Virus record (IMG/VR): IMGVR_UViG_3300035199_000626
Location: 1-23,964 of that record
DNA: 23,964 nt
Source of the DNA: a virus
Direction: 5' to 3' (one strand)
How positions within the stretch are numbered: the first letter of the stretch is position 1; every line of letters begins with the position of its first letter. Made by a program: the position numbers and the translations under genes. The notes under the pieces were generated by a model. That model was not told the DNA's origin. It ran no database searches and saw only the letters and a list, made by a program, of their open reading frames with translations. Positions 7,097-21,833 of this stretch are shown here, piece after piece.

Positions 7097-7651
7097 ATGC
7101 AAGTAAAGAACGGAAGCACAGTTAATGTGCACTATAAAGGTACCCTTCATGATGGTACCGAATTTGATAACTCTCATGTCCGCGGAGAGACACTAAGCTT
7201 TCAGGTTGGCTCCGGCCAGATGATTCGCGGATTTAACGATGCCGTTGTCGGCATGTCGGTTGGGGAGACAAAGACTGTAAAGCTTACACCTGATCAGGCT
7301 TATGGTCCTCGCAACCCAGAAGCAACCCAAGTTGTTCCAAAGGCTGCCTTTGGCGCCAATTTTGAGTTCGAGATTGGTGGCGTGATCCAAGGTAATGGCC
7401 CGTCGGGGCCCTTCCTGGCGAAGATTCAAGAGGTTGCCGATTCAGAGGTCACGCTTGATCTAAACCACCCTCTCGCTGGTGAGGCTTTGAACTTTGAAAT
7501 CGAGGTGGTTTCTGTTGATGGTCTTAAGTCTTATAACGATTGGAGTCCCTCCATGAAGAAGGCCGAGTTATATCAGATCGCCAAGTCTCGTGGATTAAAT
7601 GTTACCACCAAATTTACTAAAACAAAGTTGGTTGAAGCATTGAGAGCGTAA
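7097..7651 (+). CDS. SlyD-type FKBP peptidyl-prolyl isomerase with C-terminal SAP/HeH-like module
   Basis: This 184-residue protein would accelerate cis-trans isomerisation at proline and may chaperone phage or host proteins. Residues 1-75 hold the FKBP signature: VNVHYKGTLHDGTEFDNS, then VGSGQMIRGFNDAVVGM, then AYGPR. Residues 75-140 look like the inserted flap and returning strands of SlyD, including the family hallmark DLNHPLAGEALNFEIEV. The His/Cys-rich metal-binding tail of E. coli SlyD is absent. Instead, residues 150-184 (MKKAELYQIAKSRGLNV, then TKTKLVEAL) resemble a helix-extension-helix or SAP module, a small fold that often binds nucleic acid. The ATG follows AAAGGAG. The gene has its own promoter and terminator, so it is probably expressed independently. 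The FKBP assignment is firm; the tail assignment is tentative. Confidence 0.92.
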   Translation: MQVKNGSTVNVHYKGTLHDGTEFDNSHVRGETLSFQVGSGQMIRGFNDAVVGMSVGETKTVKLTPDQAYGPRNPEATQVVPKAAFGANFEFEIGGVIQGNGPSGPFLAKIQEVADSEVTLDLNHPLAGEALNFEIEVVSVDGLKSYNDWSPSMKKAELYQIAKSRGLNVTTKFTKTKLVEALRA

Positions 7652-8675: not shown

Positions 8676-9206
8676 ATGGCTATAAGAAAAAACAAGAAGA
8701 GAATTGATCCTCGGTATTTTTTAAACGAGACGACGTATAGGGATTTGGAAGAACAAGAGGGCCAGGACGCGGTTAAGGCGTTGCTGGAGAAGATATGGAC
8801 CAGTATAGATGGTGGTATCCCACAGATCAGCGCTGAGCTTGGTACTTATGGTGGAGAAGGATGCAAAGATATCAGGGTACAGGGGGTTATTGATAAATAT
8901 GAGAAGATCATGGGAGAGGTTAATACTGCCGCGGCGTCAATCAAAGCTGCCCAGACAATGGTACATCAGCTTCAGGCAGCCGTAAAAGCTGGACGTTCAG
9001 ACATTGAATTAGTTTCAAGACATTATTCGCAACTTATTAACGTCGCTACGGAAGCATATGAAGCAGCTAAAGCGATGAACCCGGAAGATCAACGTAGCAT
9101 TAAAATGGGGATCTTCAAAACATGCGGATATGGGACCGCTCTATCGTTCCACCGGCGAAACGCGAAAGGAATCAAGGGCATGATTGAACGTGCGCTTGGC
9201 GTCTAA
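8676..9206 (+). CDS. Unknown helical phage protein
   Basis: This gene encodes 176 residues. The ATG at 8676 follows AAGGAG (8664-8669) by six bases, ten bases after the primase stop. The N-terminus is basic (MAIRKNKKRIDPRYFLNE) and the middle is alanine-rich and probably long helices or coiled coil (roughly residues 65-135). There is no membrane segment or enzymatic motif. The N-terminal FLNE contains an L-x-E tripeptide at residues 16-18, the same kind of site seen in the module proteins downstream, but the surrounding sequence is different. It is probably co-transcribed with the primase and the next two genes. Function unknown; a structural or internal head protein is one possibility. Confidence 0.6.
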   Translation: MAIRKNKKRIDPRYFLNETTYRDLEEQEGQDAVKALLEKIWTSIDGGIPQISAELGTYGGEGCKDIRVQGVIDKYEKIMGEVNTAAASIKAAQTMVHQLQAAVKAGRSDIELVSRHYSQLINVATEAYEAAKAMNPEDQRSIKMGIFKTCGYGTALSFHRRNAKGIKGMIERALGV

Positions 9207-9225: not shown

Positions 9226-9477
9226 ATGAAAATCACTCAGGCACGACTTAAAGAGATCATCAACGAAGAGATTGAGGCCTGGTTATCTGAGGATGATGAG
9301 ATCGAAGAAGATAAAGATTGGATCCAAAAGGCAGTCGATCCCGAACACGAAGGCTATTGCACGCCGATGACCAAAAAGACCTGTACTCCTGCGCGCAAGG
9401 CACTCGCCAAGCGCTTTAAGAAAGCGGCGAAGAAGAAAGAAAAGAAAGGCGGTACGGGCTGGCAAGGGAAAGTCTAA
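9226..9477 (+). CDS. Small basic protein with the N-terminal MKIT module
   Basis: This 83-residue protein starts MKITQARLKEIINEE, a variant of the N-terminal module shared with at least seven other proteins in this window. A very acidic stretch follows (residues 17-33). The C-terminal half (roughly residues 43-83) has Cys-Thr-Pro repeats (YCTPMTKKTCTPARKALAKR) and is strongly basic. The acidic-then-basic layout would suit a DNA-contacting protein whose N-terminus is removed, but that is inference. The possible (I/L)-x-E site is I12-N13-E14. AAAGG lies ten bases before the ATG, a weak signal, and the stop overlaps the next start by one base, which suggests coupling. Confidence 0.7.
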   Translation: MKITQARLKEIINEEIEAWLSEDDEIEEDKDWIQKAVDPEHEGYCTPMTKKTCTPARKALAKRFKKAAKKKEKKGGTGWQGKV

Positions 9478-10415
9478 TGAAGATCTCCGAAGTCAAACTC
9501 CGACAGATTATTTTACAAGAGGTTCATGGCCGGCTTGTAAAAGAGTTGATTGATGAAGAACTTTTTAGGATTCTTTTAGAACAAGATGATGATATATCGG
9601 ACGAAGAATACCTTGAATTATGGAAAAAGAAACCCAGCTTTCGTCAACGAGTAAGAGACACATTTGATAATTTCGATGCCCTGTCGTCGCTTAAGAAAAA
9701 AGCTGCAATCGTAGTGATGGGAATGATGGCGGCCGGCCTTACCGACTTTGCTGGCAAGACCGCTGCGCAAGCTCAAGCAGATCAACTTGCAGCAGAATTT
9801 AGAGCCGACCAAGAGGAAGCAAAAGCAAAAAGCTTTGGCACTCTTGAAGATGTGCGTAATTTTAGAGATGCGGCCCAGTCCGAAATCCCAGTGCTCAGCG
9901 ACACCGACGCAGAGGGTATTCAGCAAGCAAGAGATAAATTCATGGCCATGGGTGTTCAAGAAGCCCCTATCATTAGTGATTTAGCGGTGGGAACAGGAGA
10001 GCAAAGGTTTGCATACACCCCAGCAGACAACATACCAGACGATACTGTTCTTCCGTTTGTGGGTATGACCAAGGCTGATTGGGAAGTATTAGTGCGTAGA
10101 TGGCTCACCTCTCCAGGCGGGGTCAAGAAGATTGAGAGATATATTGGCACCAGAGGAAAAAGCCAAGCGCTTTTTTGGGCGTACGGACCCAGAGAACAAC
10201 TATTTTCATATGCAGTCGATGATGCGGATCCGGGCAACCGAGGAATGTGGCTTCCTCCGGAATGGTCCGTCGCATATGATGTGGTGCAGAAAAACAAAGC
10301 ACGATCCGGCCAACCATCGCCAGAGGATGATCTTGGTATCCCTACGGCCGGCGGCCCCGACGTCTGGAAAGAATCTTTAAGAAAATACTTGCATCATATT
10401 CTGAATGTGTTATAA
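9477..10415 (+). CDS. Module-tagged protein with one hydrophobic segment, function unknown
   Basis: This 312-residue protein starts at the ATG at 9477, overlapping the previous stop and following an AGGGAAAG ribosome binding site. The N-terminus MKISEVKLRQIILQE is a divergent copy of the shared module, with L13-Q14-E15 as the possible cleavage tripeptide, one residue later than in its relatives. Residues 73-92 (KKAAIVVMGMMAAGLTDFAG) could be a membrane-crossing or membrane-inserting helix, followed by an Ala/Gln/Glu-rich helix. The C-terminal half is unlike anything I recognise and shows no lysozyme or protease motif. Its last codons overlap the next promoter. It may be an internal virion protein, by analogy with the other tagged proteins. 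Confidence 0.65.
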   Translation: MKISEVKLRQIILQEVHGRLVKELIDEELFRILLEQDDDISDEEYLELWKKKPSFRQRVRDTFDNFDALSSLKKKAAIVVMGMMAAGLTDFAGKTAAQAQADQLAAEFRADQEEAKAKSFGTLEDVRNFRDAAQSEIPVLSDTDAEGIQQARDKFMAMGVQEAPIISDLAVGTGEQRFAYTPADNIPDDTVLPFVGMTKADWEVLVRRWLTSPGGVKKIERYIGTRGKSQALFWAYGPREQLFSYAVDDADPGNRGMWLPPEWSVAYDVVQKNKARSGQPSPEDDLGIPTAGGPDVWKESLRKYLHHILNVL

Positions 10416-10416
10416 T
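10389..10416 (+). promoter_or_regulatory. Sigma-70-type promoter for the 27-residue peptide gene
   Basis: TTGCAT (10389-10394), a 16-base spacer and a perfect TATAAT (10411-10416) with an upstream TGT extended -10. It overlaps the end of the preceding gene and lies about 30 bases before the small membrane peptide start. Confidence 0.75.
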
Positions 10417-10443
10417 ATAAGCATGAACACAAGGAGGGTTTGT

Positions 10444-10527
10444 ATGTTCGTTCTTAATCTAATCGTTGATTCTATGTTGCTGGTTGCTTCTTTTTATGGG
10501 ACTTTGTTTCTGCTGCAATCGATTTAA
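10444..10527 (+). CDS. 27-residue hydrophobic peptide, putative single-pass membrane protein
   Basis: ATG 10444 follows a strong AAGGAGG ribosome binding site with a six-base gap, and the frame runs to TAA at 10525-10527. The peptide has one acidic residue, no basic residue and is otherwise almost all hydrophobic (MFVLNLIVDSMLLVASFYGT, then LFLLQSI), long enough for one membrane helix. It has its own promoter with a perfect -10 (10389-10416) and sits in a 180-base gap between two large genes. Promoter plus ribosome binding site plus frame make chance unlikely. Small phage membrane peptides can act in lysis timing, superinfection exclusion or host membrane change; no specific role can be read here. 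Confidence 0.65.
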   Translation: MFVLNLIVDSMLLVASFYGTLFLLQSI

Positions 10528-10535
10528 TTTTATAG

Positions 10536-10564
10536 TTGACAGCCTCTATTGACAGTGCTATACT
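10536..10564 (+). promoter_or_regulatory. Strong sigma-70-type promoter for the SbcD-SbcC fusion gene
   Basis: TTGACA (10536-10541), a 17-base spacer and TATACT (10559-10564), with a TGC extended -10. It is overlapped by the inverted repeat at 10542-10576. The ribosome binding site AAGGAGG at 10585-10591 follows. Confidence 0.88.
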
Positions 10565-10576
10565 GTCAATAGAGGC
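10542..10576. repeat. Perfect 14-bp inverted repeat over the promoter (candidate operator)
   Basis: The left arm GCCTCTATTGACAG (10542-10555) and the right arm CTGTCAATAGAGGC (10563-10576) are exact reverse complements around a 7-base centre, TGCTATA. The arms cover the promoter spacer and the start-site region, and the centre holds most of the -10 box. Because a start site would fall near 10571, transcripts from this promoter lack the left arm, so the repeat more likely acts as DNA (repressor or activator site, or cruciform). In read-through RNA from the upstream promoter it could form a hairpin. Confidence 0.85.
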
Positions 10577-10595
10577 ATTTGTCTAAGGAGGATAT

Positions 10596-13500
10596 GTGAA
10601 GTTTGCTCATATTAGCGATACTCACATTAAAAATTTAAAATATCATTTCGAATATCGAGTAATCTTTGAACAGCTATACGAAAAGCTGCGTGAAGAAAAA
10701 GTCGATTATATCGTTCACTGTGGAGACGTTGCGCATACTAAGACGCAAATCTCCCCAGAATATGTGGATATGTGTTCGCAGTTCTTTGAGAGCTTGGCGG
10801 CCATCGCACCCACTTATGTAATTTTAGGCAATCATGACGGTAACCTAAAGAACAGCAGTCGTCAAGATGCTTTGACACCAATTTTTAATGCACTTAATCA
10901 TTCGAACCTTCATCTATTAAAGGAATCGGGAGAAACAAACGTCAACGACAAGGTGTGTCTAAACGTTCTTTCAGTATTTGATCGCGAAAATTGGATCCAA
11001 CCGACTAATTCAGATAAGATTAACATCGCTCTTTATCATGGATCAATCAGTAACTGTAAAACAGATATTGGCTGGGTCATGCTGAACGGCGAAGATACAA
11101 TGGGGATTTTTGATGGATTTGATTTCGCTATGCTTGGTGACATTCATCGTCGTCAAATTCTTGACGATGCTGGGCGCATTTGGTATGCAGGCAGTACCGT
11201 CCAGCAGAATCACGGAGAGACAAACGATAAGGGTATTCTTATTTGGGATATTCAATCAAAGGACGATTGGGACGTCGAGCCGGTTGTGTTCACGAACCCG
11301 AAGCCGTTCATTACACTGGAACTCACGCCGAAAGGCCGCATGCCCAAGGGAACGAATGTCCCGAAGGGCGCGAGACTTCGGCTCGTAAGTCATAATAATC
11401 TGCCGCTTAATATCATGAAGCGCGCCATAGATATCGCAAAGCACCGCTTTAAGCCGGAAGTTGTGACGTTTTTAAACCGTGCTGCAGGCGACCGCGGCGA
11501 CGTATCAGAAATCACCGATACACTAAAGACCGAGAACCTTCGCGATATTAATATTCAAGAAGAGTTGATAGACGAATATCTAAAAGATTATCAGGTCGAT
11601 GACTCCACGATGGAAAAGGTTTATGAACTTAACCGCAAATATAAGAAAGTGGTGGAAGACGACGATGATATTTCCCGGAATGTTAATTGGAAGCTCGCAA
11701 GCTTTGAATTCGACAATTTATTTAATTATGGAGAAAACAACAGTGTATGCTTTGAGGAGCTTAACGGGATCACAGGAATCTTTGGTAAAAACTTTTCTGG
11801 TAAAAGTAGCATTATTGATGCTGCACTTTGGACCCTTTTTAATACAACTTCAAAAAACGAACGCAAGAATCTCAACGTCATTAATCAAAACAAAGAGTCT
11901 TGTCGAGGAAAATTGAGGATTGATGTTGGCCATTATAGTTATACAATTGAGAGAACCGCTGAAAAGTACACTAAGCGATTAAAGGGCGAAGAGACCCTTG
12001 AAGCAAAGACTGATTTAAATTTTGAAGTTTATGATAATATTGCGGACGAGACCATATCTTTAAACGGCCTCAGTCGCCCCCTGACCGACGCAAATATTCG
12101 TAAACACTTCGGCACGTGTGAAGACTTTCTAATCTCTTCAATGGCCTCCCAGCACGGCGCATTGGCGTTTATTGACGAAGGCTCCACCCGTCGGAAGGAG
12201 ATCATTGCCAAATTCCTTGATTTGGAAATTTTTGAAAAGAAATTCAAATTATCCAAAGAAGATAGTACCGATCTCAAGGGCGCCCTAAAACGCCTCGAAT
12301 CGCGCAATTATGATGAGGAGATCGCCGATGCTTCCGGAGAACTGAAAACTAAAAAGACAGAACTAGAAGGTCACAAGCGCCAATGTGAAAAATTAAAGAC
12401 AGAAATTGACAATATAACGCAGACCTGTGCGAAGTTGCGAAATAGCATTGACGCAATTCCCGAAGAGGTCATCAACGTGATTGACACAAAGAGGGAGATT
12501 CGAAAGAAACAAATTCAGATTGCGTCCTTGGAAAGTGAAAACAAACAACATAGCGTAGACCTGAGCGTAAAGAGGGGTATTTCTGAGAAGATAGAGCATT
12601 ATCTTAAAAAGATAAACATAGCTGTTCTTTCAAGACAACAAGGTGTTATCGAAAACCTTCAGCACGAAAAGGAAGAAAACGCCCAAACTCTCGCAACCCT
12701 CCTACAACAGATAGGGGATATCGAACGCAAGGCACAATTATTGGAGGGGATCCCGTGTGGTACTGAATATCCGCAATGCAAATTTATTCGTGATGCTAAT
12801 GTAGCTGTGGCTAATCTTCCCCATGTGGAAGAAGAACAACAGAACACACAACTCGTATCCAACACCATAGATAAAAAGATTCAGAGTTTGCGACCAGATT
12901 TTGTAGCAGATCAAATCGAGAAGCACACAACTATATCCAGCAAGAGACTTCTTACAACAAATGCAATTGCAGATCTTAATTTATCCATAGAAAAGAATCA
13001 CGCTTCGGCGGAGCGACTGGGATATGAATTGAAAGATCTGGAAGAAAAGAAAAAGAAATATGAAGAGAACAAAGAAGCCATTGAAAATTTTGAAGAGTTT
13101 ACGGCAGAACTGGATGCTTGCAACGCTACACTAGAAAAGGCCGAAGCTAAATATGGAGTGCGCCAAGAGCAGACTTTAGAACTTTACAAGGATGTTGGTT
13201 CTCTCGAACAAAAAGTAGAAAGCGTTCGAGAACAAAAACAAGAATACCTAAACCTACAGGAGGAATACTCAGCTTATGATCTTTACATGCATTGCATGCA
13301 TTCATCTGGTATTGCTTACGATATTATTAAACGGAAACTCCCCGTCATCAATCAAGAGATCGCGAAGGTCTTGGCCAATATAGTTGATTTCGAAATCTTC
13401 TTCGAAGATAGTGGAAAGAAATTTGATATTTTTATTAAGCACCCCAGACACGAACCTAGACCTATTGAAATGGCATCCGGTGCCGAAAAAACTATGGGTG

Positions 13501-13745
13501 CCATGGCCATTCGTTTGGCTCTTTTGAGCGTTTCGTCGTTACCAAAAAGTGATTTGTTCATTCTTGATGAACCGGGCACCGCACTAGACGAAGAAAATAT
13601 GGAAGGTTTTATTAGGATATTGGAACTAATTAAAGTGTATTTTAAGAACGTTTTGTTGATCTCGCACCTTGATTCGCTCAAAGACTGTGTTGACATGCAA
13701 ATTGTAATTGAGAAAAAATCAGGATACGCGAGAGTTAATCAATAG
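10596..13745 (+). CDS. SbcD-SbcC (gp47-gp46) single-chain fusion, recombination nuclease-ATPase
   Basis: This 1049-residue protein joins two subunits that are separate in T4 and bacteria. Residues 1 to about 350 are an Mre11/SbcD phosphoesterase: Asp8 and His10 (ISDTHIKN), Asp44 (HCGD), GNHDG at 78-82, His148 (YHGS) and LGDIHRRQ at 180-187. Residues from about 360 are a Rad50/SbcC ATPase: Walker A GKNFSGKS at 397-404, long coiled coils, a cysteine pair at 721 and 728, an ABC signature (ASGAEKT) near 957, and Walker B with D-loop (LFILDEPGTALDEEN) near 988. It would resect DNA ends for recombination-dependent replication. It starts at GTG 10596, four bases after AAGGAGG (10585-10591), under its own promoter. 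Confidence 0.95.
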   Translation: MKFAHISDTHIKNLKYHFEYRVIFEQLYEKLREEKVDYIVHCGDVAHTKTQISPEYVDMCSQFFESLAAIAPTYVILGNHDGNLKNSSRQDALTPIFNALNHSNLHLLKESGETNVNDKVCLNVLSVFDRENWIQPTNSDKINIALYHGSISNCKTDIGWVMLNGEDTMGIFDGFDFAMLGDIHRRQILDDAGRIWYAGSTVQQNHGETNDKGILIWDIQSKDDWDVEPVVFTNPKPFITLELTPKGRMPKGTNVPKGARLRLVSHNNLPLNIMKRAIDIAKHRFKPEVVTFLNRAAGDRGDVSEITDTLKTENLRDINIQEELIDEYLKDYQVDDSTMEKVYELNRKYKKVVEDDDDISRNVNWKLASFEFDNLFNYGENNSVCFEELNGITGIFGKNFSGKSSIIDAALWTLFNTTSKNERKNLNVINQNKESCRGKLRIDVGHYSYTIERTAEKYTKRLKGEETLEAKTDLNFEVYDNIADETISLNGLSRPLTDANIRKHFGTCEDFLISSMASQHGALAFIDEGSTRRKEIIAKFLDLEIFEKKFKLSKEDSTDLKGALKRLESRNYDEEIADASGELKTKKTELEGHKRQCEKLKTEIDNITQTCAKLRNSIDAIPEEVINVIDTKREIRKKQIQIASLESENKQHSVDLSVKRGISEKIEHYLKKINIAVLSRQQGVIENLQHEKEENAQTLATLLQQIGDIERKAQLLEGIPCGTEYPQCKFIRDANVAVANLPHVEEEQQNTQLVSNTIDKKIQSLRPDFVADQIEKHTTISSKRLLTTNAIADLNLSIEKNHASAERLGYELKDLEEKKKKYEENKEAIENFEEFTAELDACNATLEKAEAKYGVRQEQTLELYKDVGSLEQKVESVREQKQEYLNLQEEYSAYDLYMHCMHSSGIAYDIIKRKLPVINQEIAKVLANIVDFEIFFEDSGKKFDIFIKHPRHEPRPIEMASGAEKTMGAMAIRLALLSVSSLPKSDLFILDEPGTALDEENMEGFIRILELIKVYFKNVLLISHLDSLKDCVDMQIVIEKKSGYARVNQ

Positions 13746-13751
13746 GAGATT
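13722..13751 (+). repeat. Direct repeat copy 1: SbcC 3' end plus ribosome binding site
   Basis: This 30-base stretch encodes the last residues of the SbcD-SbcC fusion (GYARVNQ and stop) and the following AGGAG. It matches 14213-14242 at 26 of 30 positions. The second copy, in the same relative frame, would read GLARVNQ and stop. Confidence 0.85.
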
Positions 13752-13756
13752 TTAAA

Positions 13757-14194
13757 ATGAAAGTAACCAAGAGACAACTTAAGAAGATTATTAAGGAAGA
13801 GATAGAGGCAACGATGCAGGAACAAGGTGGGGATAAGATGGCAAAAGCACAAGAACTTGCCCAAGTCCTCGCCCAAAGTCCGGCCATCATGGATTTTGTG
13901 AGAGAAGCAGCCCAAAATCCAGAAGTTCAAGCTGTCGCAGAAGAGGGTGAAAGCAAACTCTCTGAGCGCCACGACCCGGATGTGAGCCAAGCCAGCGCGC
14001 TTGGTGCTGCTGGAATGGGCCTCGGCGCGGCCGCACTGCACGTTAACCTTATGAGCCAAATAGGCATGGTATCGGCCGCCACCGCCGGCGGACTCTTCGG
14101 CGCACTTGGGCTCCCGGCCGCGGGTCTGATTGCCGTCGCGGTTGGTATATTAGTCCATAGAACGATCAAGGGCCCCCCGGTCTCCGAGCGATGA
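13757..14194 (+). CDS. Module-tagged protein with Gly/Ala-rich membrane segments
   Basis: This 145-residue protein starts at the ATG at 13757, eight bases after AGGAG, with MKVTKRQLKKIIKEE, a close copy of the shared N-terminal module (possible cleavage tripeptide I12-K13-E14). Residues 21-75 are helical and mixed in charge. Residues 79-133 are Gly/Ala-rich and hydrophobic, enough for two membrane passes (roughly 79-96 and 103-133), ending in a short basic tail. It could be a membrane-active protein delivered from the virion, or a holin-like protein made late; sequence alone does not decide. It lies between the SbcD-SbcC fusion and the tubulin-like gene and is bracketed by 30-base direct repeats, so it looks inserted. 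Confidence 0.7.
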   Translation: MKVTKRQLKKIIKEEIEATMQEQGGDKMAKAQELAQVLAQSPAIMDFVREAAQNPEVQAVAEEGESKLSERHDPDVSQASALGAAGMGLGAAALHVNLMSQIGMVSAATAGGLFGALGLPAAGLIAVAVGILVHRTIKGPPVSER

Positions 14195-14244
14195 AAATCA
14201 CCAAGTATGAATGGATTAGCAAGAGTAAATCAATAGGAGATTAA
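14191..14244 (+). pseudogene. Recombination scar: start of a module joined to a remnant SbcC 3' end
   Basis: The ATG at 14191 overlaps the previous stop (ATGA). Its first 16 bases, ATGAAAATCACCAAGT, equal the start of the module gene at 16556, then homology stops. In this frame a 17-residue peptide (MKITKYEWISKSKSIGD) would be made. In another frame, 14195-14236 reads KSPSMNGLARVNQ and stop, matching the end of the SbcD-SbcC fusion (KSGYARVNQ). The stretch therefore looks like a fusion of a lost module gene with the tail of a related sbcC allele. It also carries the ribosome binding site AGGAG (14235-14239) of the tubulin-like gene. It might still be translated, but I consider it a remnant. 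Confidence 0.7.
14213..14242 (+). repeat. Direct repeat copy 2: remnant SbcC 3' end plus ribosome binding site
   Basis: Second copy of the repeat at 13722-13751, with 26 of 30 identical bases. Two of the changed codons are synonymous in the SbcC frame (GCG to GCA, GTT to GTA), which suggests a copy that once coded. It supplies the AGGAG for the tubulin-like gene. Confidence 0.85.
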
Positions 14245-14245
14245 A

Positions 14246-15388
14246 ATGTCTGAAGAAAACGACGACAAAAACGAATTTGATTTTCTGCCTCCCGCAGAAC
14301 CACCTCCTGCATTTGTACAGGAGAAAGACAGTTACCACGAACAGGTAGATGCCGAAGACTTTGGCATGGTGGAGGACTTTGGACTCCAGATGGAGTATTC
14401 CGATGAAGACCTTCTTCCCGAGAACACAGCTGCTTCTTCGCTGAACATTGGCTTTGTCGGCGTTGGTGGTGGTGGCAACAAAATGGCCAACGCCTTTCTA
14501 GAGCTTGGTTTCAACAAGACGTTGATGGTTAACACCACAGGAAAGGACATTCCAAAGAACGTCGAAGAAGATCATGTCGTCCTCATCCCCGATAGCGACG
14601 GCATCGGCAAGAACGTAGACTATGGCAAAGAAGTTCTATCACAGAATGGTGCCATCATTGAAGACGCTCTTCGCATTAAGCTTGGCAAAGTCGACTGGCT
14701 CATTGTGATGGCCGGCGGCGGCGGTGGAACCGGAAGTTCCGTGACCGCACTGCACCCAGTTTTTGAAAGATATATGAAGTCTGTGCAGGCAGGTGGCAAA
14801 GTTGTATACATTGTTTCATGGCCCACAGCACAAGAAAACCTTAACCCCACAATCGCTCGTAATGCTTTAACGCTGCTGAATGATGTTGCGAAACACCCTC
14901 ACATTGTTCTGGACAACGAGCGTTCTACACGTTTACTGCGTGGCCGGATCGGCATGCTCGGCATGTATCCGGTCGCCAACACACAATTTGCTAAGTCACT
15001 TGCTCAAGTTTTAAAACTCTCCACCGAGGATTCACCGATCCAATCTTTCGACTCAAAGGATTTGGAAACTTGCTTGGGCGAAGATGGCAGGGCCTTCTTG
15101 GGCTCGACAATGATAAAAGATCCAAATACTGGAAAGCTTGGATCGGTGATCCTTCACAACTGCATGAACCGCTCCGCATGCCCTCCCCCCAAAGGGAAGG
15201 CTGGAGCAGGCTCATTAATTCTGGTTGTGTCAGAAGAGATGGTGGCTGATCCAAAAGTCAGCAAGAATATTGAGTCGGCAATCGCTTATGTCGGCGGCCG
15301 ATGCGAGACATTGTTCTCTGGCGTTTATGTTAGAAAGAATGTGCCCGGATTGATTGCGATACTAAGTATGAATGGTTTAACCACGTAA
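14246..15388 (+). CDS. FtsZ/tubulin-like GTPase
   Basis: This 380-residue protein has the tubulin/FtsZ GTPase plan. The first nucleotide loop is IGFVGVGGGGNKMANAFL (68-85), the tubulin signature loop is GGGGGTGSS (157-165), and SFDSKDLETCL (267-277) lines up with the FtsZ T7 loop, keeping both acidic positions (Asp269, Asp272) while the usual Asn is Ser. By family knowledge it would form GTP-dependent filaments. Known phage relatives such as PhuZ centre the replicating phage DNA; whether this one does so is inference. The GTPase core (about 66-380) is of normal size, preceded by an unusual acidic extension of about 65 residues with prolines. There is no acidic C-terminal tail like that of PhuZ. 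ATG 14246 follows AGGAG by six bases. Confidence 0.88.
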   Translation: MSEENDDKNEFDFLPPAEPPPAFVQEKDSYHEQVDAEDFGMVEDFGLQMEYSDEDLLPENTAASSLNIGFVGVGGGGNKMANAFLELGFNKTLMVNTTGKDIPKNVEEDHVVLIPDSDGIGKNVDYGKEVLSQNGAIIEDALRIKLGKVDWLIVMAGGGGGTGSSVTALHPVFERYMKSVQAGGKVVYIVSWPTAQENLNPTIARNALTLLNDVAKHPHIVLDNERSTRLLRGRIGMLGMYPVANTQFAKSLAQVLKLSTEDSPIQSFDSKDLETCLGEDGRAFLGSTMIKDPNTGKLGSVILHNCMNRSACPPPKGKAGAGSLILVVSEEMVADPKVSKNIESAIAYVGGRCETLFSGVYVRKNVPGLIAILSMNGLTT

Positions 15389-15399
15389 GGAACAACAAA

Positions 15400-15678
15400 A
15401 TGAAAATCACCAAATCACAACTCAAACAGATCATTAAAGAAGAGTTTGAAAAAACCACCTCAGCAACAATGCGCTCAGGCGCCATGCAGGGTGTTAAAGA
15501 TGTCACCGCCGGCGGAATTTCAGATCAAGAGCGCGGTGTCATACAGAAGCTGCAGGCCCAATTAGCCCGCGCAGCAAAGATCGGTAACATTACCTCTGGA
15601 AGAGTCTTCCAGTTAGCCCAGCGCCTTTCAGCAGAATTAGAGAAGGTAAGCCCGGCCGAAACCCCCGAAGAAGGATAA
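15400..15678 (+). CDS. Small helical protein with the N-terminal MKIT module
   Basis: This 92-residue protein starts exactly with MKITKSQLKQIIKEE, the consensus form of the shared module (tripeptide I12-K13-E14). After a linker of about 25 residues, residues 45-83 look like two helices (ERGVIQKLQAQLARAAKIG, then RVFQLAQRLSAELEK), rich in Ala, Leu and Gln, followed by an acidic proline-containing tail. There is no enzymatic motif. AAGGAA precedes the ATG by about six bases. It is the first of four consecutive module genes downstream of the tubulin-like gene, all apparently in one operon. A small internal head protein is my working guess. Confidence 0.7.
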   Translation: MKITKSQLKQIIKEEFEKTTSATMRSGAMQGVKDVTAGGISDQERGVIQKLQAQLARAAKIGNITSGRVFQLAQRLSAELEKVSPAETPEEG

Positions 15679-15689
15679 GGAGCTATCCC

Positions 15690-16553
15690 ATGAAAATCGC
15701 CAAGTCCCAACTTAAACAGATTATCAACGAAGAAATCCGGATTGTGATGGAAGAGGTCGAACTCCCGGATTTTATAAATAAGTTGGGATATCGTTCGCCA
15801 AAAGAAGACGTACAGGCTGCGTATGACACTTTGACCGACGAGGAGAAAGCTCAGGTTGATAGCCCCGACGCCATGTATGATAAAATTGCAATGATTCGCC
15901 GCATGTATCATAAACGTGCCACGGACCCTATGCACAGCAAAGGCCCCGATCAAAAAGCCGAGTGGATGAAAATCCTTAAAGATAAGTATATTGATGTACC
16001 AACTATGGGAAAGGGTGAACACGCCGAGTATGCCGGTAAACAACTTCCCGGCGGCCAACTAGCGGTTAGAATGGATCACGAAGTTGCGAAAGAATTAGCA
16101 GATGCCGGCACTCCTGTTCCAGAAGAGTTCATTAAGCAGATTCGACAAAAATTGGTGCCTCAAGATCTGACCACCCATCAAGGCCCAGAACCCGGCTCAG
16201 ACGAGTGGTTTCGGACTCGCAAAGGCAGCGGCCCCAGCCACAAATATGACGATTCCCACCGTGCTAACCCTGGAGTCGCCGGGACTGCCCACATGGGCTA
16301 TGGAGAATCAATGAAAATCGACAGAGGATACCTTAAAAAGGTCATCAAAGAAGAGCTTGAAGAAATTCTCGGATCTCACCAGCCGGGATATGGTGAAGGC
16401 AATCTTACCATGGACGATGTGCATGCGGTCTTGAATAAACTTGAGATGCATGATAAAGACCCGAAAGCTATTTGGGATGAGTTTAAGGATTTGAACAATG
16501 CCGATGATTTAGAAGACAAGCTGTGGCAAGCGCAGGCATTCTTTGGAAAATAG
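15690..16553 (+). CDS. Module-tagged protein with a second, internal module
   Basis: This 287-residue protein starts MKIAKSQLKQIINEE at the ATG at 15690, eight bases after AAGGAG. Residues 16-205 are mostly charged and helical then loop-rich, with no motif I know. At residue 208 a second module begins (MKIDRGYLKKVIKEE), followed by about 65 residues ending in an acidic helix. The internal Met (16311) has GGAG five bases upstream, so a separate product of about 80 residues may also be made from it. The simplest reading is two adjacent module genes fused by loss of the stop between them. The function of either part is unknown. Confidence 0.7.
   Translation: MKIAKSQLKQIINEEIRIVMEEVELPDFINKLGYRSPKEDVQAAYDTLTDEEKAQVDSPDAMYDKIAMIRRMYHKRATDPMHSKGPDQKAEWMKILKDKYIDVPTMGKGEHAEYAGKQLPGGQLAVRMDHEVAKELADAGTPVPEEFIKQIRQKLVPQDLTTHQGPEPGSDEWFRTRKGSGPSHKYDDSHRANPGVAGTAHMGYGESMKIDRGYLKKVIKEELEEILGSHQPGYGEGNLTMDDVHAVLNKLEMHDKDPKAIWDEFKDLNNADDLEDKLWQAQAFFGK
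16311..16358 (+). repeat. Internal copy of the MKIT module inside the 15690-16553 gene
   Basis: The 16 codons read MKIDRGYLKKVIKEEL, in frame with the long gene. GGAG at 16302-16305 lies five bases before the ATG, a good distance for an internal start. The possible cleavage tripeptide is V-I-K-E, that is I-K-E, at the same module position as in the N-terminal copies. Confidence 0.8.
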
Positions 16554-16555
16554 AC

Positions 16556-17287
16556 ATGAAAATCACCAAGTCCCAACTTAAACAGATTATTAAGGAAGAG
16601 CTTGGCACAGCGATGGCTTGGGAAGATAAGCCAGAAATAGACATTGACGCGGAGAGCTATGGTCTAAGTCCACAATGGCAGGTGGCTAAATATCTGTCCG
16701 ATCCAAAAACATGGGCTGCCTACCAAGGTGGTGTGATGGCAGATAGTCCGTATCTTTCTCCTATGTGGCAGCGATCTGATTGGGAAGAGGTTTTGGATGA
16801 ATGGGCTGACGAAATTAAATTAGATGGAAGATCAGTCTTTGGGGGCTACCCCTCTCCAACGAAGCCGCCACCTGACGCCCTAAAATCATTCGTTGATTTT
16901 GCGAGGGTACTCATTCTGGGAGCCCGCAAGAAAGGTATGTTTGAGAAGCACGACAAATTTAAAGATACCATTAGGTGGATTTTGGCCGTCATTGATGAGA
17001 AAACAGCCGGATACGGCAATCAAGCCGATGAAGGATGGAGAGAGATGTATCAAGGATTACACGAACTTTATTATAACCAGACGGATCAGATTGGCAAGAT
17101 TGACAAAACGCATTTTGATGAGAAGCGCTCCCAATATTTAAGCGAATCACGATTCGCCAAATCACAACTTAGGCAGATTATCAAAGAAGAACTTAGTGAT
17201 TATGTGTCTAACATCTATAAGTGGTGTCCTTCGGGAAGTAAATGCTCCCCAGAGAGAAAGAAAACAAAGTGGTGGAAAGGAAGATGA
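16556..17287 (+). CDS. Module-tagged protein with a decayed second module near its C-terminus
   Basis: I place the start at the ATG at 16556, which gives MKITKSQLKQIIKEE. An upstream in-frame ATG at 16523 overlaps the previous gene and would bury the module. The product has 243 residues. The middle has many Trp and Pro residues and a region of charged helices (roughly residues 100-190), with no known motif. Residues 198-213 repeat the module as SRFAKSQLRQIIKEEL, lacking the initiator Met, then a short tail with two Cys and a basic end (WCPSGSKCSPERKKTKWW). The stop overlaps the next start (ATGA at 17284). It may be a fusion of two former module genes. Function unknown. Confidence 0.7.
   Translation: MKITKSQLKQIIKEELGTAMAWEDKPEIDIDAESYGLSPQWQVAKYLSDPKTWAAYQGGVMADSPYLSPMWQRSDWEEVLDEWADEIKLDGRSVFGGYPSPTKPPPDALKSFVDFARVLILGARKKGMFEKHDKFKDTIRWILAVIDEKTAGYGNQADEGWREMYQGLHELYYNQTDQIGKIDKTHFDEKRSQYLSESRFAKSQLRQIIKEELSDYVSNIYKWCPSGSKCSPERKKTKWWKGR
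17147..17194 (+). repeat. Internal, Met-less copy of the MKIT module
   Basis: The codons read SRFAKSQLRQIIKEEL in the frame of the 16556-17287 gene. The DNA (GCCAAATCACAACTTAGGCA and onward) still matches the module genes closely, but the ATG has become TCA, so it cannot start a protein here. Confidence 0.8.
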
Positions 17288-17664
17288 AGATCACCAAGTC
17301 CCAACTTAAGCAGATTATCAAGGAAGAGCTTGGAGAGGCGATTGAGATCGGGGGAGAGACGCTCTCATTCTCTCGCCCCCCCGAACCAGCAAAAGAAACC
17401 CTCAAGCAAGTAGCGCAGAGATTATCAGAGATACAAGATATCGATGCCATTACCGAAGATCAAGCTATGGACGTCCTCGATGTCTTGATTGATGGAATGC
17501 AAGAAATGCTTCATCTTGGTAGCTTTGGCACCGAAAGCCCGGTTGAGGAAGCGCAAGAAAATAACCCATGGGCAATATGCACAGCGCAGGTTGGGCGAGA
17601 AGATAAAGAGAAATATGAGAAATGCGTCAAGAGCGTAAAGAAACAAAACAGGAGGAAAAAATGA
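17284..17664 (+). CDS. Module-tagged small protein with a Cys-containing basic tail
   Basis: I choose the ATG at 17284, which gives MKITKSQLKQIIKEE. The in-frame ATG at 17242 would add 14 residues inside the previous gene. The product has 126 residues. Residues 17-33 are a linker, residues 34-80 are acidic helices, and the C-terminal part contains NPWAICTAQVGREDKEKYEK followed by a second Cys and a basic tail (KKQNRRKK). From memory, NPWAIC-type tails occur in other unassigned phage proteins, so this may be a reusable C-terminal domain. The first 48 bases differ from those of the 16556 gene at only three sites, all synonymous. Function unknown. Confidence 0.72.
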   Translation: MKITKSQLKQIIKEELGEAIEIGGETLSFSRPPEPAKETLKQVAQRLSEIQDIDAITEDQAMDVLDVLIDGMQEMLHLGSFGTESPVEEAQENNPWAICTAQVGREDKEKYEKCVKSVKKQNRRKK

Positions 17665-17861
17665 TGGCAACAACGAAAGCATTTATTGATACATGGTTAT
17701 CAAAACTCACATCACGTAAGCTTATGGTGTGGGCCACGGCAACGGGCCTTACGTTTACAGGGCACGTCACCAGCGAAGACTGGGTGATTATTTCTGCAAT
17801 CTATATCGGTGGCCAAACAATCATTGATGGTATCGCTAGATTGCGAGGGCATAATGATTAA
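17661..17861 (+). CDS. Putative holin (small protein with two membrane segments)
   Basis: This 66-residue protein starts at the ATG at 17661, five bases after GGAGG (17651-17655); the second ATG (17664) is also well placed, a dual-start layout seen in some holins. Two hydrophobic segments (about 20-35, KLMVWATATGLTFTG, and 41-57, WVIISAIYIGGQTIIDG) are followed by a short charged tail. From memory, the YIGGQ-x-x-x-D pattern occurs in small phage holin-like proteins. By family knowledge it would open the inner membrane to trigger lysis. The next two genes look like spanin components, which supports the call. I see no endolysin in the window. Confidence 0.65.
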   Translation: MMATTKAFIDTWLSKLTSRKLMVWATATGLTFTGHVTSEDWVIISAIYIGGQTIIDGIARLRGHND

Positions 17862-18240
17862 GAAGCGGATTCTAGAATTTGCCTTAAAGAACTGGAAAGC
17901 AATACTAATCGTATTACTTCTTCTCGCTGTGGTATTAAAGACGCGCTACGATTATCATTTGATGGAAGACGCATATCAGACACGTATAGATTCTACTGAG
18001 GCCCAAATCGAAGGATTAAAAGATATCCACGAACAGGAGATGCACGAAAAGCAATTGCTTATGGAAAGTTATCTTGAAGAGCTAGCGTCGTTAGAAAGAG
18101 AATATGAAACCACTCTTCAAGAATTGGACGAAGAACAAGAAAGAAAGACGCGAGAATACGGCAGAAAGTTCAGCGAAGACAAGGAAGGACTAATTAGTGA
18201 TATAGAGACCACGCTTGGATTGAAATATGTTTCTCCTTAA
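17854..18240 (+). CDS. Inner-membrane spanin-like (Rz-type) protein
   Basis: This 128-residue protein starts at the ATG at 17854, five bases after GAGGG; earlier in-frame ATGs lie inside the holin-like gene. After a short basic N-terminus, residues 15-28 (KAILIVLLLLAVVL) form a single membrane segment. From about 32 to 115 the sequence is highly charged and rich in Glu, Gln and Leu, typical of a periplasmic coiled coil. This N-in, coiled-coil-out layout is that of i-spanins, which join the inner and outer membranes in the last step of lysis of Gram-negative hosts. It overlaps the holin-like gene by eight bases and the next gene by 14. Confidence 0.65.
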   Translation: MIKKRILEFALKNWKAILIVLLLLAVVLKTRYDYHLMEDAYQTRIDSTEAQIEGLKDIHEQEMHEKQLLMESYLEELASLEREYETTLQELDEEQERKTREYGRKFSEDKEGLISDIETTLGLKYVSP

Positions 18241-18649
18241 TTTGTTATTTGCGCTCACCCTAACGGCAAACGCCGATTCCGCCCAGTTCACCATTTTAGG
18301 ATACAAGCAGTGCGCACCATTCGAAGGAGTACTGCTTAACAAACAAGCTACAGCCAGGGTGCTAGCTGGTTATGATCGTTTTATTCCGGCATGCGACAGT
18401 CGAGTTAACTATGAACTAAACAAGCAAGAAGAACAACATCGATTAGAATTAGAAACTCTGAAAATAGAGCACAAGGCACACACAGAAGAATATGATTTGT
18501 TCATCAAACATAAAGATAAAGAGATTCAAGCACTTGTTAAATCTTTAAAAAAGACATCTCCCCGCAATAAGACGTGGTGGCTTATCGGCGGCGTAGTGAT
18601 CGGCTCGGCGGCCACGTATGGAGCGTATAGCTTGTTTGATGAAAGATAA
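18227..18649 (+). CDS. Secreted coiled-coil protein with C-terminal membrane anchor, possible spanin partner
   Basis: This 140-residue protein starts at the ATG at 18227 inside the end of the i-spanin-like gene. Residues 1-16 (MFLLNLLFALTLTANA) look like a signal peptide cleaved before DSAQF; there is no lipobox cysteine, so it is not a classical outer-membrane lipoprotein spanin. Cys29 and Cys56 could form a disulfide in the periplasm. Residues 60-110 are a charged coiled coil, and residues 115-136 (TWWLIGGVVIGSAATYGAYS) form a C-terminal membrane segment. The order signal peptide, coiled coil, membrane anchor recalls unimolecular spanins but lacks the lipid anchor. A lysis role is inferred from position. 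Confidence 0.6.
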   Translation: MFLLNLLFALTLTANADSAQFTILGYKQCAPFEGVLLNKQATARVLAGYDRFIPACDSRVNYELNKQEEQHRLELETLKIEHKAHTEEYDLFIKHKDKEIQALVKSLKKTSPRNKTWWLIGGVVIGSAATYGAYSLFDER

Positions 18650-19022
18650 AGACTTAAATCACGTTGCTGCAATCGAAAAAGCAATTGCCGAAAAGTATGG
18701 TGCCGAGACTGTAGTCAACCCTAGGGCTAATTGGGACGAGAACAAAGAAAAAGAGTACCTCTCACAGATGAGAGAGCTTTATCAGAAAATAAAGAAAAAC
18801 GAAGAGTATGAAGAGAAAATTGATATTAATGTTATAAAGGTATCAAAAAAACTACTTAATAGAGAATCTTTAGCATGTTGTTCGGTCTGCGGATCTTTTC
18901 CAAAGAAATCACTGGATGATGTTTGCTTCATCAAATTTGATTGCTGCTATAAATGCTATATCAAATATGTCGAGGATAGAGAGGAAAGATGGTTAAAAGG
19001 ATGGAGACCCGATAATGGCTAA
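18639..19022 (+). CDS. Zinc-ribbon-like phage protein of unknown function
   Basis: I use the ATG at 18639 (product of 127 residues). Another in-frame ATG at 18618 would add seven residues and overlap the previous gene more deeply. The N-terminal half is helical and charged (AAIEKAIAEKYGAE, then KEYLSQMRELYQKIK). The C-terminal half has two cysteine pairs, Cys81-x2-Cys84 (CSVC) and Cys103-x2-Cys106 (CYKC), about 20 residues apart, which is a likely zinc ribbon. The tail is rich in Trp, Arg and Glu (YVEDREERWLKGWRPD). Nucleic-acid or RNA polymerase contact is possible, but nothing in the sequence identifies a partner. Confidence 0.6.
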   Translation: MKDKDLNHVAAIEKAIAEKYGAETVVNPRANWDENKEKEYLSQMRELYQKIKKNEEYEEKIDINVIKVSKKLLNRESLACCSVCGSFPKKSLDDVCFIKFDCCYKCYIKYVEDREERWLKGWRPDNG

Positions 19023-19578
19023 GAAAAAAGAAACATCGTCAGTGTACGAAATTATTCAAGGACTTTCGCAGGCTGCAGCCAACGCCTATGATGGCGCATT
19101 AACAGAAGATGGAGAGCCGATCAAGGCCGGCCTTCAGAGAGAAGAAGGAGACCCGATTCTAGATAAGCGCGTTTTAGATGGGTTTGGTGTTGTGTTCTAT
19201 GGCAACATGATGTGCATTAAGTATCACTCCGAAACCCAACTTAAGGAAGTATATGCTAACGGCTTCGAAAGTGGAATCGAACAAAGAGTGGCAGATATTG
19301 CCGGCTGGCTAAAGAAAGAATATCGCAAGATTACAGGCAAGTCTGTAACCCTCACAAAAGAGGGAGAGATTGATGTCCGCGTTGAAAGCACTTCTCGTGT
19401 TCGTTCGTGGGTAACCGCGAAGATGCACTATAAGGTCGGCGGCCTCAGTGACGAGATGCAGCTTGAGGCAGATTCCAAGAGCACGTTAGATAAAAGCTGG
19501 AAAACGTTCCTCGATCAAGGAGGCTGGAAAGGCAAGCGCCCCAAGAATGACACACGTCCGAAGAATGGCGGAGACTAA
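19015..19578 (+). CDS. Unknown phage protein, upstream of the packaging genes
   Basis: This gene encodes 187 residues. The ATG at 19015 follows GGAG (19003-19006) by eight bases and overlaps the end of the zinc-ribbon gene. The N-terminus begins with basic residues, followed by a helix (VYEIIQGLSQAAANAYDGA). The middle has alternating strands and helices, and the tail is rich in Lys, Gly and Arg (GGWKGKRPKNDTRPKNGGD), likely flexible. No catalytic motif or membrane segment is visible. Its position just upstream of the terminase region allows a packaging or virion role, but it does not look like a typical helix-turn-helix small terminase. Confidence 0.6.
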   Translation: MAKKKETSSVYEIIQGLSQAAANAYDGALTEDGEPIKAGLQREEGDPILDKRVLDGFGVVFYGNMMCIKYHSETQLKEVYANGFESGIEQRVADIAGWLKKEYRKITGKSVTLTKEGEIDVRVESTSRVRSWVTAKMHYKVGGLSDEMQLEADSKSTLDKSWKTFLDQGGWKGKRPKNDTRPKNGGD

Positions 19579-19584
19579 AATCAA

Positions 19585-20253
19585 ATGGATATTTCTCGCA
19601 ACGATCTTTATCGTATTATTTTAGAAGAGTATCTTAAAGAAGAAGGTCTCACAGAGGCCAAGGGAGCCTTGGATCTATTGCGGAAGATGAAAGGTGATCC
19701 AGACTATGATCCTCGCCGAGATCCGGGCGCACACAGCTATGATCCCGCCTTTAAAGGGGGCGATGATGAAACTGTTGCTGATGCGCCTCCGCCGGCTGAC
19801 GAAACCTATCCTATGGAAAAGCCCCTGCGCGCCGAAATGAGTCAAGATGAACTTGTTTCCACAATTGGGGAATTGATTCAGGGGAAGGGCCCAGAAGAAG
19901 TATCAGAGATATTTGAACTGGTTTTTGAAAAGCTTCCCGGTGTTGAGATAGGCGAGCCAGAAGAGGAAGAGCCTGAAGGACTTTACACTCCCGGCGCCGA
20001 AGGGCGCCCAGTTGCCGGTTTCCAGTTAGAAGAACTAGTGTCTCTAATTAAAGAAGCTTTGGATGACTATTCTTTTGGGTTCGAACCAGAGGAGAGATAT
20101 GACGTGCTTGACCCTGAAGGTCTTGAGCAAAAGTCAGACTATGAATTGATTCAGATGATGCGCACCGATGGCATGGAAGATATGATCGTTTTAGATGGAG
20201 AAGGCAATCTCGCCAACAAGGATGAAGTTATTGCTGCGCTGAAAGATGTATGA
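19585..20253 (+). CDS. Acidic protein with a diverged N-terminal module, before the terminase
   Basis: This 222-residue protein begins MDISRNDLYRIILEEYLKEE, which follows the hydrophobic spacing of the shared module (residues 3, 8, 11, 12) and keeps an (I/L)-x-E tripeptide (I12-L13-E14), although few residues are identical. The rest is strongly acidic, with proline-rich linkers (around 60-80 and 115-140) and three likely helical patches (SQDELVSTIGELIQG, FQLEELVSLIKEALDDY, SDYELIQMMRTDGM). Acidic, helical, module-bearing proteins recall scaffold or internal head proteins, but this is inference. Its stop overlaps the terminase start (ATGA), so translation is probably coupled. A small terminase subunit cannot be excluded. 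Confidence 0.65.
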   Translation: MDISRNDLYRIILEEYLKEEGLTEAKGALDLLRKMKGDPDYDPRRDPGAHSYDPAFKGGDDETVADAPPPADETYPMEKPLRAEMSQDELVSTIGELIQGKGPEEVSEIFELVFEKLPGVEIGEPEEEEPEGLYTPGAEGRPVAGFQLEELVSLIKEALDDYSFGFEPEERYDVLDPEGLEQKSDYELIQMMRTDGMEDMIVLDGEGNLANKDEVIAALKDV

Positions 20254-21833
20254 GTTTTCAATTAGGCAAAAACCAGAGAGTCAAAGAGATATTAAAGTGC
20301 GGTAAAGATCCGTCTTATTTTCTTAACACGTATGCCCGTATATCCCACCCGATGCACGGGCTGATTCTTTTTGATACTTATGACTTTCAAGATGAGCTTC
20401 TCAAAGAGTTTAACGACTATCGCTTTAATGTAATTCTTAAAGCGCGCCAACTCGGGATATCAACAATTACAGCCGGCTACATCGTATGGATGATGTTGTT
20501 CCATCGTGATAAGGCGATTCTTGTCATGGCGACAAAGTTCGCGACAGCAGGAAACTTGGTAAAGAAAGTCAAAAACATCATGCGTAATCTTCCCGATTGG
20601 TTGAAGATCGCAACCATCAGCGTTGACAACCGTACTTCATTTGAGCTTTCTAATGGTTCTTCCATTAAGGCTGCTTCCACGTCAGGGGACGCAGGACGTT
20701 CCGAAGCTCTGTCTCTTTTGGTTCTTGATGAGGCCGCCCACATTGAGGGCCTTGAAGAGTTGTGGACAGGTTTGTACCCCACCTTGTCAACTGGTGGACG
20801 TTGTATTGCATTATCTACCCCCAACGGCGTCGGTAACTGGTTTCACAAAGTTTGTGCAGATTCTGAAGCTGGAGCCAACAACTTTCATTTAACCACTCTC
20901 TCGTGGGAGGTACATCCAGATCGCGATGAACAATGGTACACCAAAGAAACAAGGAATATGTCCAAGCGGCAAATCGCTCAGGAATTGCAATGCAATTTCA
21001 ATACTTCCGGAGAAACGGTTATCGACCCAGAGTGCATGGAGTGGCTTTTATCTATAGCAAGAGAGCCAAAATATCGCACTGGCTTTGATCGTAATTTTTG
21101 GATTTGGGAAGAATTTGATCCTACATGCAATTATTTAATGGTAGCAGATGTTGCTCGGGGAGACGGCGCTGACTATTCTACATTTCACGTTATAAAGCTA
21201 GAAACTTTAGAAGTAGTTGGGGAATATCAAGGAAAACCTGCGTTAGATATGTACGCAGCAATGCTGAATCAGATAGGCCGCGAATTTGGAAATGCGATGT
21301 TAGTTGTTGAAAACAACAATATTGGATACTCAGTGCTAGACAAACTAATTGAATATGCATATCCCAATTTATATTATTCGATAAAGTCCACACATGAATA
21401 TATCGAACAGCACCAAGCCGAATATAAAAACAACGCGATTCCCGGATTTACAACATCGATGAAGACCCGACCTCTAATCATAGCGAAATTCGAAGAGTTT
21501 ATCAGAAATAAACTAATTAAGATATATTCATCGCGCACAACAAACGAGATGAAAACCTTTATTTGGAGGAATGGAAAACCACAAGCAATGAAAGGTTACC
21601 ATGATGATTTAATTATGGCTCTTGCCATCGGCTGCTGGGTAAGAGACACGGCAATTCAAAGTAGCGCAAGGGATTTAAATTATCAAAAAGCTTTTGCTGA
21701 TGCAATTTATACATCTAAAACTACCATGAATACTCAAATAAAAGGCCAAAATGGATATAAAAAGGATAATATTTTTGATAAGATGAATGAAGCAAAAAAT
21801 ACATATGATGAATTTAGCTGGATCATAAAGTGA
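20250..21833 (+). CDS. Terminase large subunit (gp17-like)
   Basis: This 527-residue protein would pump DNA into the prohead and cut it. The ATPase half has an adenine-contact Gln (FQDEL at 46-50), a terminase-type Walker A, KARQLGIST (64-72), Walker B LLVLDEAAHIEG with Asp160 and Glu161, and a coupling-like motif, LSTPNG (189-194). The C-terminal nuclease half has the three acidic sites of the RNase H-like fold: Asp300 (YLMVADVARGDGADYS), Glu354 (LVVENNNIGY) and Asp452/Asp453 (GYHDDLIMALAI). T4 gp17 has 610 residues, so this is a compact relative. It starts at the ATG at 20250 overlapping the previous stop and is followed ten bases later by the portal gene, the standard order. Confidence 0.96.
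   Translation: MSFQLGKNQRVKEILKCGKDPSYFLNTYARISHPMHGLILFDTYDFQDELLKEFNDYRFNVILKARQLGISTITAGYIVWMMLFHRDKAILVMATKFATAGNLVKKVKNIMRNLPDWLKIATISVDNRTSFELSNGSSIKAASTSGDAGRSEALSLLVLDEAAHIEGLEELWTGLYPTLSTGGRCIALSTPNGVGNWFHKVCADSEAGANNFHLTTLSWEVHPDRDEQWYTKETRNMSKRQIAQELQCNFNTSGETVIDPECMEWLLSIAREPKYRTGFDRNFWIWEEFDPTCNYLMVADVARGDGADYSTFHVIKLETLEVVGEYQGKPALDMYAAMLNQIGREFGNAMLVVENNNIGYSVLDKLIEYAYPNLYYSIKSTHEYIEQHQAEYKNNAIPGFTTSMKTRPLIIAKFEEFIRNKLIKIYSSRTTNEMKTFIWRNGKPQAMKGYHDDLIMALAIGCWVRDTAIQSSARDLNYQKAFADAIYTSKTTMNTQIKGQNGYKKDNIFDKMNEAKNTYDEFSWIIK

Follow-up and report, generated by a model that had tools for sequence, protein, structure and literature searches.

A recurrent N-terminal leader on unrelated proteins of marine T4-like phages as a probable capsid targeting sequence

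The 23,964-base IMG/VR fragment IMGVR_UViG_3300035199_000626 (the window, at its full length) derives from a marine T4-like phage infecting bacteria, and eight of the proteins that it encodes begin with variants of one 15-residue module, which we call the KITK tag. A preliminary description of this DNA had reported such a leader and had taken it for a common sorting or docking signal. Open reading frames (ORFs) do start at all eight positions that it gave, with the tag or a variant of it at the N-terminus, and the bodies behind the tag are as unrelated to each other as had been claimed (no pair with E < 0.02 when compared from residue 21 onward). The tags and a further leader are as follows, with the basis of the assignment given last in brackets where one was recorded.

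9226–9270, + strand: KITK tag MKITQARLKEIINEE of an 83-residue basic protein (9226–9477; ORF and motif match)
9477–9521, + strand: diverged tag MKISEVKLRQIILQE of a 312-residue protein (9477–10415; ORF and family alignment)
13757–13801, + strand: KITK tag MKVTKRQLKKIIKEE of a 145-residue protein with a hydrophobic C-terminal stretch (13757–14194; ORF and hydropathy)
15400–15444, + strand: KITK tag MKITKSQLKQIIKEE of a 92-residue protein (15400–15678; ORF and DNA pattern)
15690–15734, + strand: KITK tag MKIAKSQLKQIINEE of a 287-residue protein (15690–16553; ORF and DNA pattern)
16311–16355, + strand: internal second tag copy MKIDRGYLKKVIKEE within the protein starting at 15690 (motif match)
16556–16600, + strand: KITK tag MKITKSQLKQIIKEE of a 243-residue protein (16556–17287; ORF and DNA pattern)
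17147–17191 (start approximate), + strand: internal tag copy SRFAKSQLRQIIKEE in the protein starting at 16556, ahead of a C-terminal module LSDYVSNIYKWCP...WWKGR
17284–17328, + strand: KITK tag MKITKSQLKQIIKEE of a 126-residue protein (17284–17664; ORF and DNA pattern)
19585–19629, + strand: diverged tag MDISRNDLYRIILEE of a 222-residue acidic protein (19585–20253), directly upstream of the terminase gene
8676–8729, + strand: leader 3, MAIRKNKKRIDPRYFLNE, of a 176-residue protein (8676–9206)

A degenerate DNA pattern for the tag recovers five of the eight on the + strand of the window and none on the - strand, and a reversed control pattern has no match in the window. The tag at 9477 is the most diverged of the seven variants, and that at 19585 has diverged further still; the latter has 78 profile matches among the ORFs of relatives. 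The earlier statement that Glu14 and Glu15 are both kept fails for E14 of the protein at 9477, which has Q14, and stands for E15: here L13-Q-E15 replaces I12-x-E14, such that the predicted [LI]xE site is retained and moved by one residue. Pfam and PHROGs searches with the window's tagged proteins returned nothing convincing, and AlphaFold2 on four sequences of the 9477 family reached a predicted local distance difference test score of 43, a result that was not used. Related-locus searches with the proteins at 9477 and 13757 found one relative each, in line with a rapid change of the bodies. The frame at 19585–20253 overlaps the start of the terminase gene and has many homologs in relatives, with the C-terminal 50 residues conserved and the middle variable.

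The spread of the tag was studied in 80 loci sampled via the portal protein irrespective of the tag and in further loci found via its DNA pattern; genes were called with a simple gene caller, and many of the contigs are fragments that are not independent of each other. An iterated profile matches over 400 open frames, and almost all of these begin with Met or Val (GTG) close to the start of the frame. After removal of duplicates, the first 195 loci held 363 distinct tagged proteins (median 114 residues), and an enlarged set of related IMG/VR contigs held 456, falling into about 289 body clusters (247 singletons). The leader lies at most 60 residues from the frame start in 98.7% of these 456, the exceptions including internal copies in fused genes. 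The module is thus N-terminal, as first proposed, in about 99% of cases, if not strictly so, as the proteins at 15690 and 16556 hold internal copies; matches at random positions, which the preliminary description had named as a possible refutation, were looked for and not seen. The same is true of its other named refutation, matches in host housekeeping genes: at least 118 viral stretches match the tag DNA pattern, and none of 84,980 bacterial and archaeal genomes (257 Gb) does, so that a host housekeeping origin is rejected. Copies number 3 to 11 on each of eighteen long contigs (71–146 kb), and overall the abundance and placement of the tag are far above chance. Short-peptide tblastn against a named-phage collection gave almost no matches, as close isolates of this group are missing from it; by terminase, Flavobacterium phage immuto comes nearest among named isolates, at 47% identity. 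We found no open-access paper containing the strings MKITKSQLK or ENWRKF. The earlier view that no function is established therefore remains valid for the sequence MKITKSQLK itself; for the kind of element there is, however, a precedent in the internal proteins of T-even phages that stand behind one capsid targeting sequence (CTS).

In the 10-residue CTS of the T4 internal protein IPIII, residues 4 and 7 serve targeting and residues 8 and 10 serve processing by gp21, according to the passage of PMC9026906 that cites Mullaney and Black 1996; across T-even phages the bodies of the internal proteins are diverse and the CTS alone is conserved (PMC3012670). The most constant residues of the KITK tag fall into the same register: L8, I11, I12 and E14 align with Y4, F7, I8 and E10 of IPIII. 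The T4 record sequences of IPII and IPIII (MKTYQEFIAE/A), gp24 (MAKINELLRE/S) and gp23 (FGSFLTE/A) are written here with a slash at cut positions that we take to be established knowledge, and gp24 and gp23 suit the same pattern. Among tags from the portal-fetched loci, L8 is found in 95% (with Ile in 4%), I11 in 89%, I12 in 98%, E14 in 98% and E15 in 97%, as opposed to a lower 56–62% for Q7, Q10 and K13. Hydrophobic residues at -6, -3 and -2 together with Glu at the predicted cut occur in 98% of tags, a figure that is circular for the tag-defining residues, although the register agrees with that of the T4 sequences taken from the record.

Further potential sites lie beyond the tag. In 15.7% of tags a second PhixxPhi[ILV]xE motif has its end at residue 22, the background being 0.2% (a 70-fold excess). 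Downstream of the tag, Ile or Leu has Glu two residues on in 19% against 10% (p = 1.7e-15); spacings of +1, +3, +4 and +5 are unenriched, and -2 and -3 are enriched less strongly. In the six tags that have lost E14, an [LIM]xE ends at residue 18 or 19 in five, against 20% of the rest (p = 0.002, for windows picked after inspection), a compensation that suggests a cleavage site. The propeptides of T4 and of phiKZ-like phages, too, hold several sites.

At the level of DNA, copies of the tag have synonymous codons in common: Q7 is CAA in 91% and Q10 is CAG in 67% (p = 1.8e-49), and CTT, with a background of 24%, makes up 63% of the L8 codons. This indicates that the tags descended from one another by DNA copying, and it is what would be seen if the module were merely a copied start codon and leader that recombines between genes, its peptide having no common job. 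We consider that explanation barely credible, as the key residues are fixed even as their codons vary (L8 is about 99% Leu over six codons, and I12 is ATT in 51% and ATC in 43%), pointing to selection on the tag peptide, and as bodies retain a leader of like design when the leader sequence itself is swapped. A promoter or 5' element copied along with the tag was also considered and rejected: the upstream stretch that recurs at many loci comes from the 3' end of the tubulin gene, short remnants of which precede tags elsewhere too, and for that reason it seems to be a trace of duplication rather than a required element.

The partners in these swaps are two further leaders of like design from this group of contigs. 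The first, the W leader MKLLFENWRKFLNE (MKLLFENWRKFLxE), occurs on 368 proteins in 159 body clusters; W8, [FY]11, [LIV]12 and E14 are fixed, nothing is fixed beyond E14, and L4-x-E6 supplies an additional [LI]xE. It is accordingly fixed at the very positions, 8, 11, 12 and 14, at which the KITK tag is fixed. The second, leader 3 (MAIRKNKKRIDPRYFLHE or MAIRKNKKRIDPRYF[LM]xE, of the form ...IDPRYF[LM]xE), occurs on 114 proteins in 69 clusters, including the window protein at 8676; in an early set, 30 of 32 had a further [ILVM]xE at +5 to +14, against a mean of 10.6 and a maximum of 19 in shuffles. Seventeen clusters bring together bodies with different leaders, and there are eight clean swaps in which the body aligns from its start (E from 6e-71 to 3e-6). 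One body, for instance, carries leader 3 in L163 and the KITK tag in L145, and another the W leader in L035 and the KITK tag in L134; the family of the window protein at 13757 has the KITK tag in the window, L267, L041 and L017:372, and leader 3 in L106 and L017:3953. Moreover, 15 of 64 untagged homologs of tag bodies with a visible N-terminus have the W leader or leader 3, compared to 32 of 1114 genes overall (p = 4e-9). Judged by sequence comparison, the leader can apparently be exchanged without change of the body, as a sorting signal predicts, and together with the T4 CTS register this exchange lends support to the sorting or docking signal that the preliminary description had proposed. 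A start resembling the W leader (MDISTGNWFEYLREE) is also seen on two very large proteins of about 1170 residues, G001_129 and G007_070.

The tagged genes of the window lie next to head genes of T4 type, with an untagged GTPase gene in the midst of the cluster:

14246–15388, + strand: tubulin/FtsZ-family GTPase, untagged (Pfam PF00091, E 4.5e-10)
20250–21833, + strand: terminase large subunit (gp17-like), which anchors the T4-type head gene order
21843–23828, + strand: portal protein (gp20-like)

In relatives the portal gene is followed by genes for a gp21-type protease, a gp22-type scaffold and a gp23-type capsid protein, and gp21 is present in eight of ten long tagged contigs, the other two (G003, G005) stopping less than 3 kb past the terminase. 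The relatives' own head proteins hold comparable segments: gp23 in six genomes has AKELLRE/SSS or AKQLLKE/ASS where T4 has SFLTE/A (a predicted site), gp21 has an LLTE, LLNE or LLSE segment close to its start, and gp22 starts with MSNLLSEA or alike. The ten long contigs carry 62 tags, of which 42 are found in a region reaching from 16 kb upstream to 8 kb downstream of the terminase; some tags of G006, G003 and G005 are located at far greater distances on the contig, and the 108 identified core genes have no tag. A small basic protein, bS21-like by eye, adjoins the gp21-type protease gene (L046:13070-13327, with equivalents in L035, L062 and G002_051).

The wider neighborhood, in which the genes of the left part and the membrane and spanin-like genes were named by reading the sequence, runs from tail genes through a RuvC-like gene (6199), an FKBP gene (7097), a primase-like gene (7724), a gp47/gp46-type nuclease (10596) and the tubulin/FtsZ-family gene (14246) to small membrane and spanin-like genes (17622–18649), the terminase (20250) and the portal (21843). 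That tagged genes also adjoin tail, lysis and tubulin genes would fit a leader that docks, uncut, to some other late structure such as the tail, the baseplate or the tubulin filaments of the same cluster, and an amphipathic helix is suited to general docking. Such an arrangement seems distinctly improbable to us: three leaders without mutual relationship all contain [ILV]xE sites, which agree with those of gp23 and gp21 in these phages, and the conservation of the W leader ends at E14. Among the neighbors themselves, the GTPase is also weakly PhuZ-like, and its place within the T4-like late cluster is conserved in relatives (e.g. G009_095); the nuclease at 10596–13745 apparently joins the SbcD/SbcC-type nuclease and ATPase subunits in one fused frame of 1049 residues; the C-terminal stretch of the FKBP-type protein (7097–7651) resembles, by eye, a small SAP or HeH nucleic-acid-binding domain; and the genes at 17622–18649, holin-like and spanin-like by eye, are interspersed with tagged genes.

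The internal tag copies have a parallel in these relatives. In L169, L024, L069, L127, L106 and L092 the C-terminal module SNIYKWCP...WWKGR forms a short tagged gene by itself, and in L046, L123 and the window protein at 16556 it is fused, each time with a tag of its own. Judging by these architectures, the internal copies at this module are fused genes that have retained their leaders, and since internal copies would be cut like the terminal ones, such fused genes may act as small polyproteins.

We therefore come to the reading that we consider likely, namely that the module is a T4-type CTS. The leader would dock its protein on the prohead scaffolding core while the head assembles, the hydrophobic L8 and I11 making the docking contact, and I12-x-E14 would be the site at which the gp21-type prohead protease cuts, after E14, to free the body inside the head. 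Those freed bodies that serve as cargo would go into the head alongside the DNA and be injected into the next host. Like the T4 CTS of IPI, IPII, IPIII and Alt, which is cut by gp21, the tag is a short N-terminal leader on diverse bodies in phages with T4-type head genes and a gp21-type protease. It differs in its length (14–15 residues as against 10), in the fixation of E15 as well, in its internal copies, in its number (as many as a dozen or so copies in one genome as against a few) and in being accompanied by two extra exchangeable leaders. The system is thus a greatly expanded variant of the known T4 system, with hundreds of different proteins in place of a few.

Several points count against this reading. 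The genes for protease, scaffold and capsid lie outside the window. The KITK tag has the register of the T4 CTS and no clear sequence similarity to MKTYQEFIAE, to which the W leader (ENWRK[FY]LxE) is nearer. E15 is conserved as strongly as E14, even though a T4-type site has no need of it. A strong Pfam match (YkuD) was obtained for only one of 94 representatives of KITK bodies, the enzymes being found under the W leader. Lastly, PhixxPhiPhixE is also produced by an amphipathic helix; that the tag is more than a helix is argued by the second motif, the leaders of like design, the leader exchange and the weak data on compensation for E14.

The nature of the bodies bears on whether they are cargo at all. 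Many are small and acidic with more [ILV]xE sites past the leader, some proteins hold several tag copies, and the protein at 19585 is acidic (isoelectric point 4.1) with homologs widespread in relatives; all this would suit parts of the prohead core that, like T4 gp67 and gp68, dock and are then destroyed by the protease. We regard that possibility as unlikely, because some 289 unrelated and fast-changing bodies are unlike an essential core and because enzymes stand under the exchangeable W leader. These include NUDIX, SAM-lyase family, protein kinase, 5' nucleotidase, exonuclease, amidase and zeta-toxin-like kinase domains, and one protein, L372, resembles the T4 ADP-ribosyltransferase ModB (E 0.0013). 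Injected cargo of the kind of T4 Alt and IPI would be expected to look like this: Alt is packaged, injected and modifies RNA polymerase, and IPI counters a restriction enzyme. A further W-leader protein (L254:870-1208, - strand, MKLLFENWREFLKEETYYHGGGKDF...) is ADP-ribosyltransferase-like, of the class of T4's packaged Alt.

Comparable arrangements are found at greater distances. In the phiKZ-like giant phages phiKZ, 201phi2-1 and SPN3US, too, head and ejection proteins, among them many different inner head proteins, have N-terminal propeptides that a gp21-related protease cleaves behind a Glu; several of these propeptides exceed 100 residues, unlike the one short leader set over unrelated genes here. 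In immuto, the leaders MKKSELVKLIKEEL, MKKSQLRQIIKEAL and MENFDLKKFLVEN show this PhixxPhiPhixE pattern as well and are carried by several hypothetical proteins encoded close to the terminase, differing from the present ones in their few copies and other first residues. A fourth leader of this design, MENFDLKKFLVENKLTxNSxLLKE, is shared by several proteins of immuto (L200).

Finally, a broader generalization, which we offer tentatively and with some leaning towards doubt, is that these leaders form a general cargo-loading code, in which three exchangeable cassettes, each combining a hydrophobic docking face with protease sites, are placed before several hundred proteins, some of them polyproteins that would be cut at internal leader copies, such that one head may deliver at least a dozen changing effectors to the host along with the DNA. 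If the CTS reading is right, the exact mature N-termini of the proteins would be predicted and could be checked by mass spectrometry, and searching sequences with the leader profiles would yield a list of the packed, and probably injected, proteins of marine T4-like phages. That list would comprise several hundred families, few of them with a known function, and as injected proteins are the first to meet the host's defences, it would be a direct source of candidates for counter-defence and host takeover.

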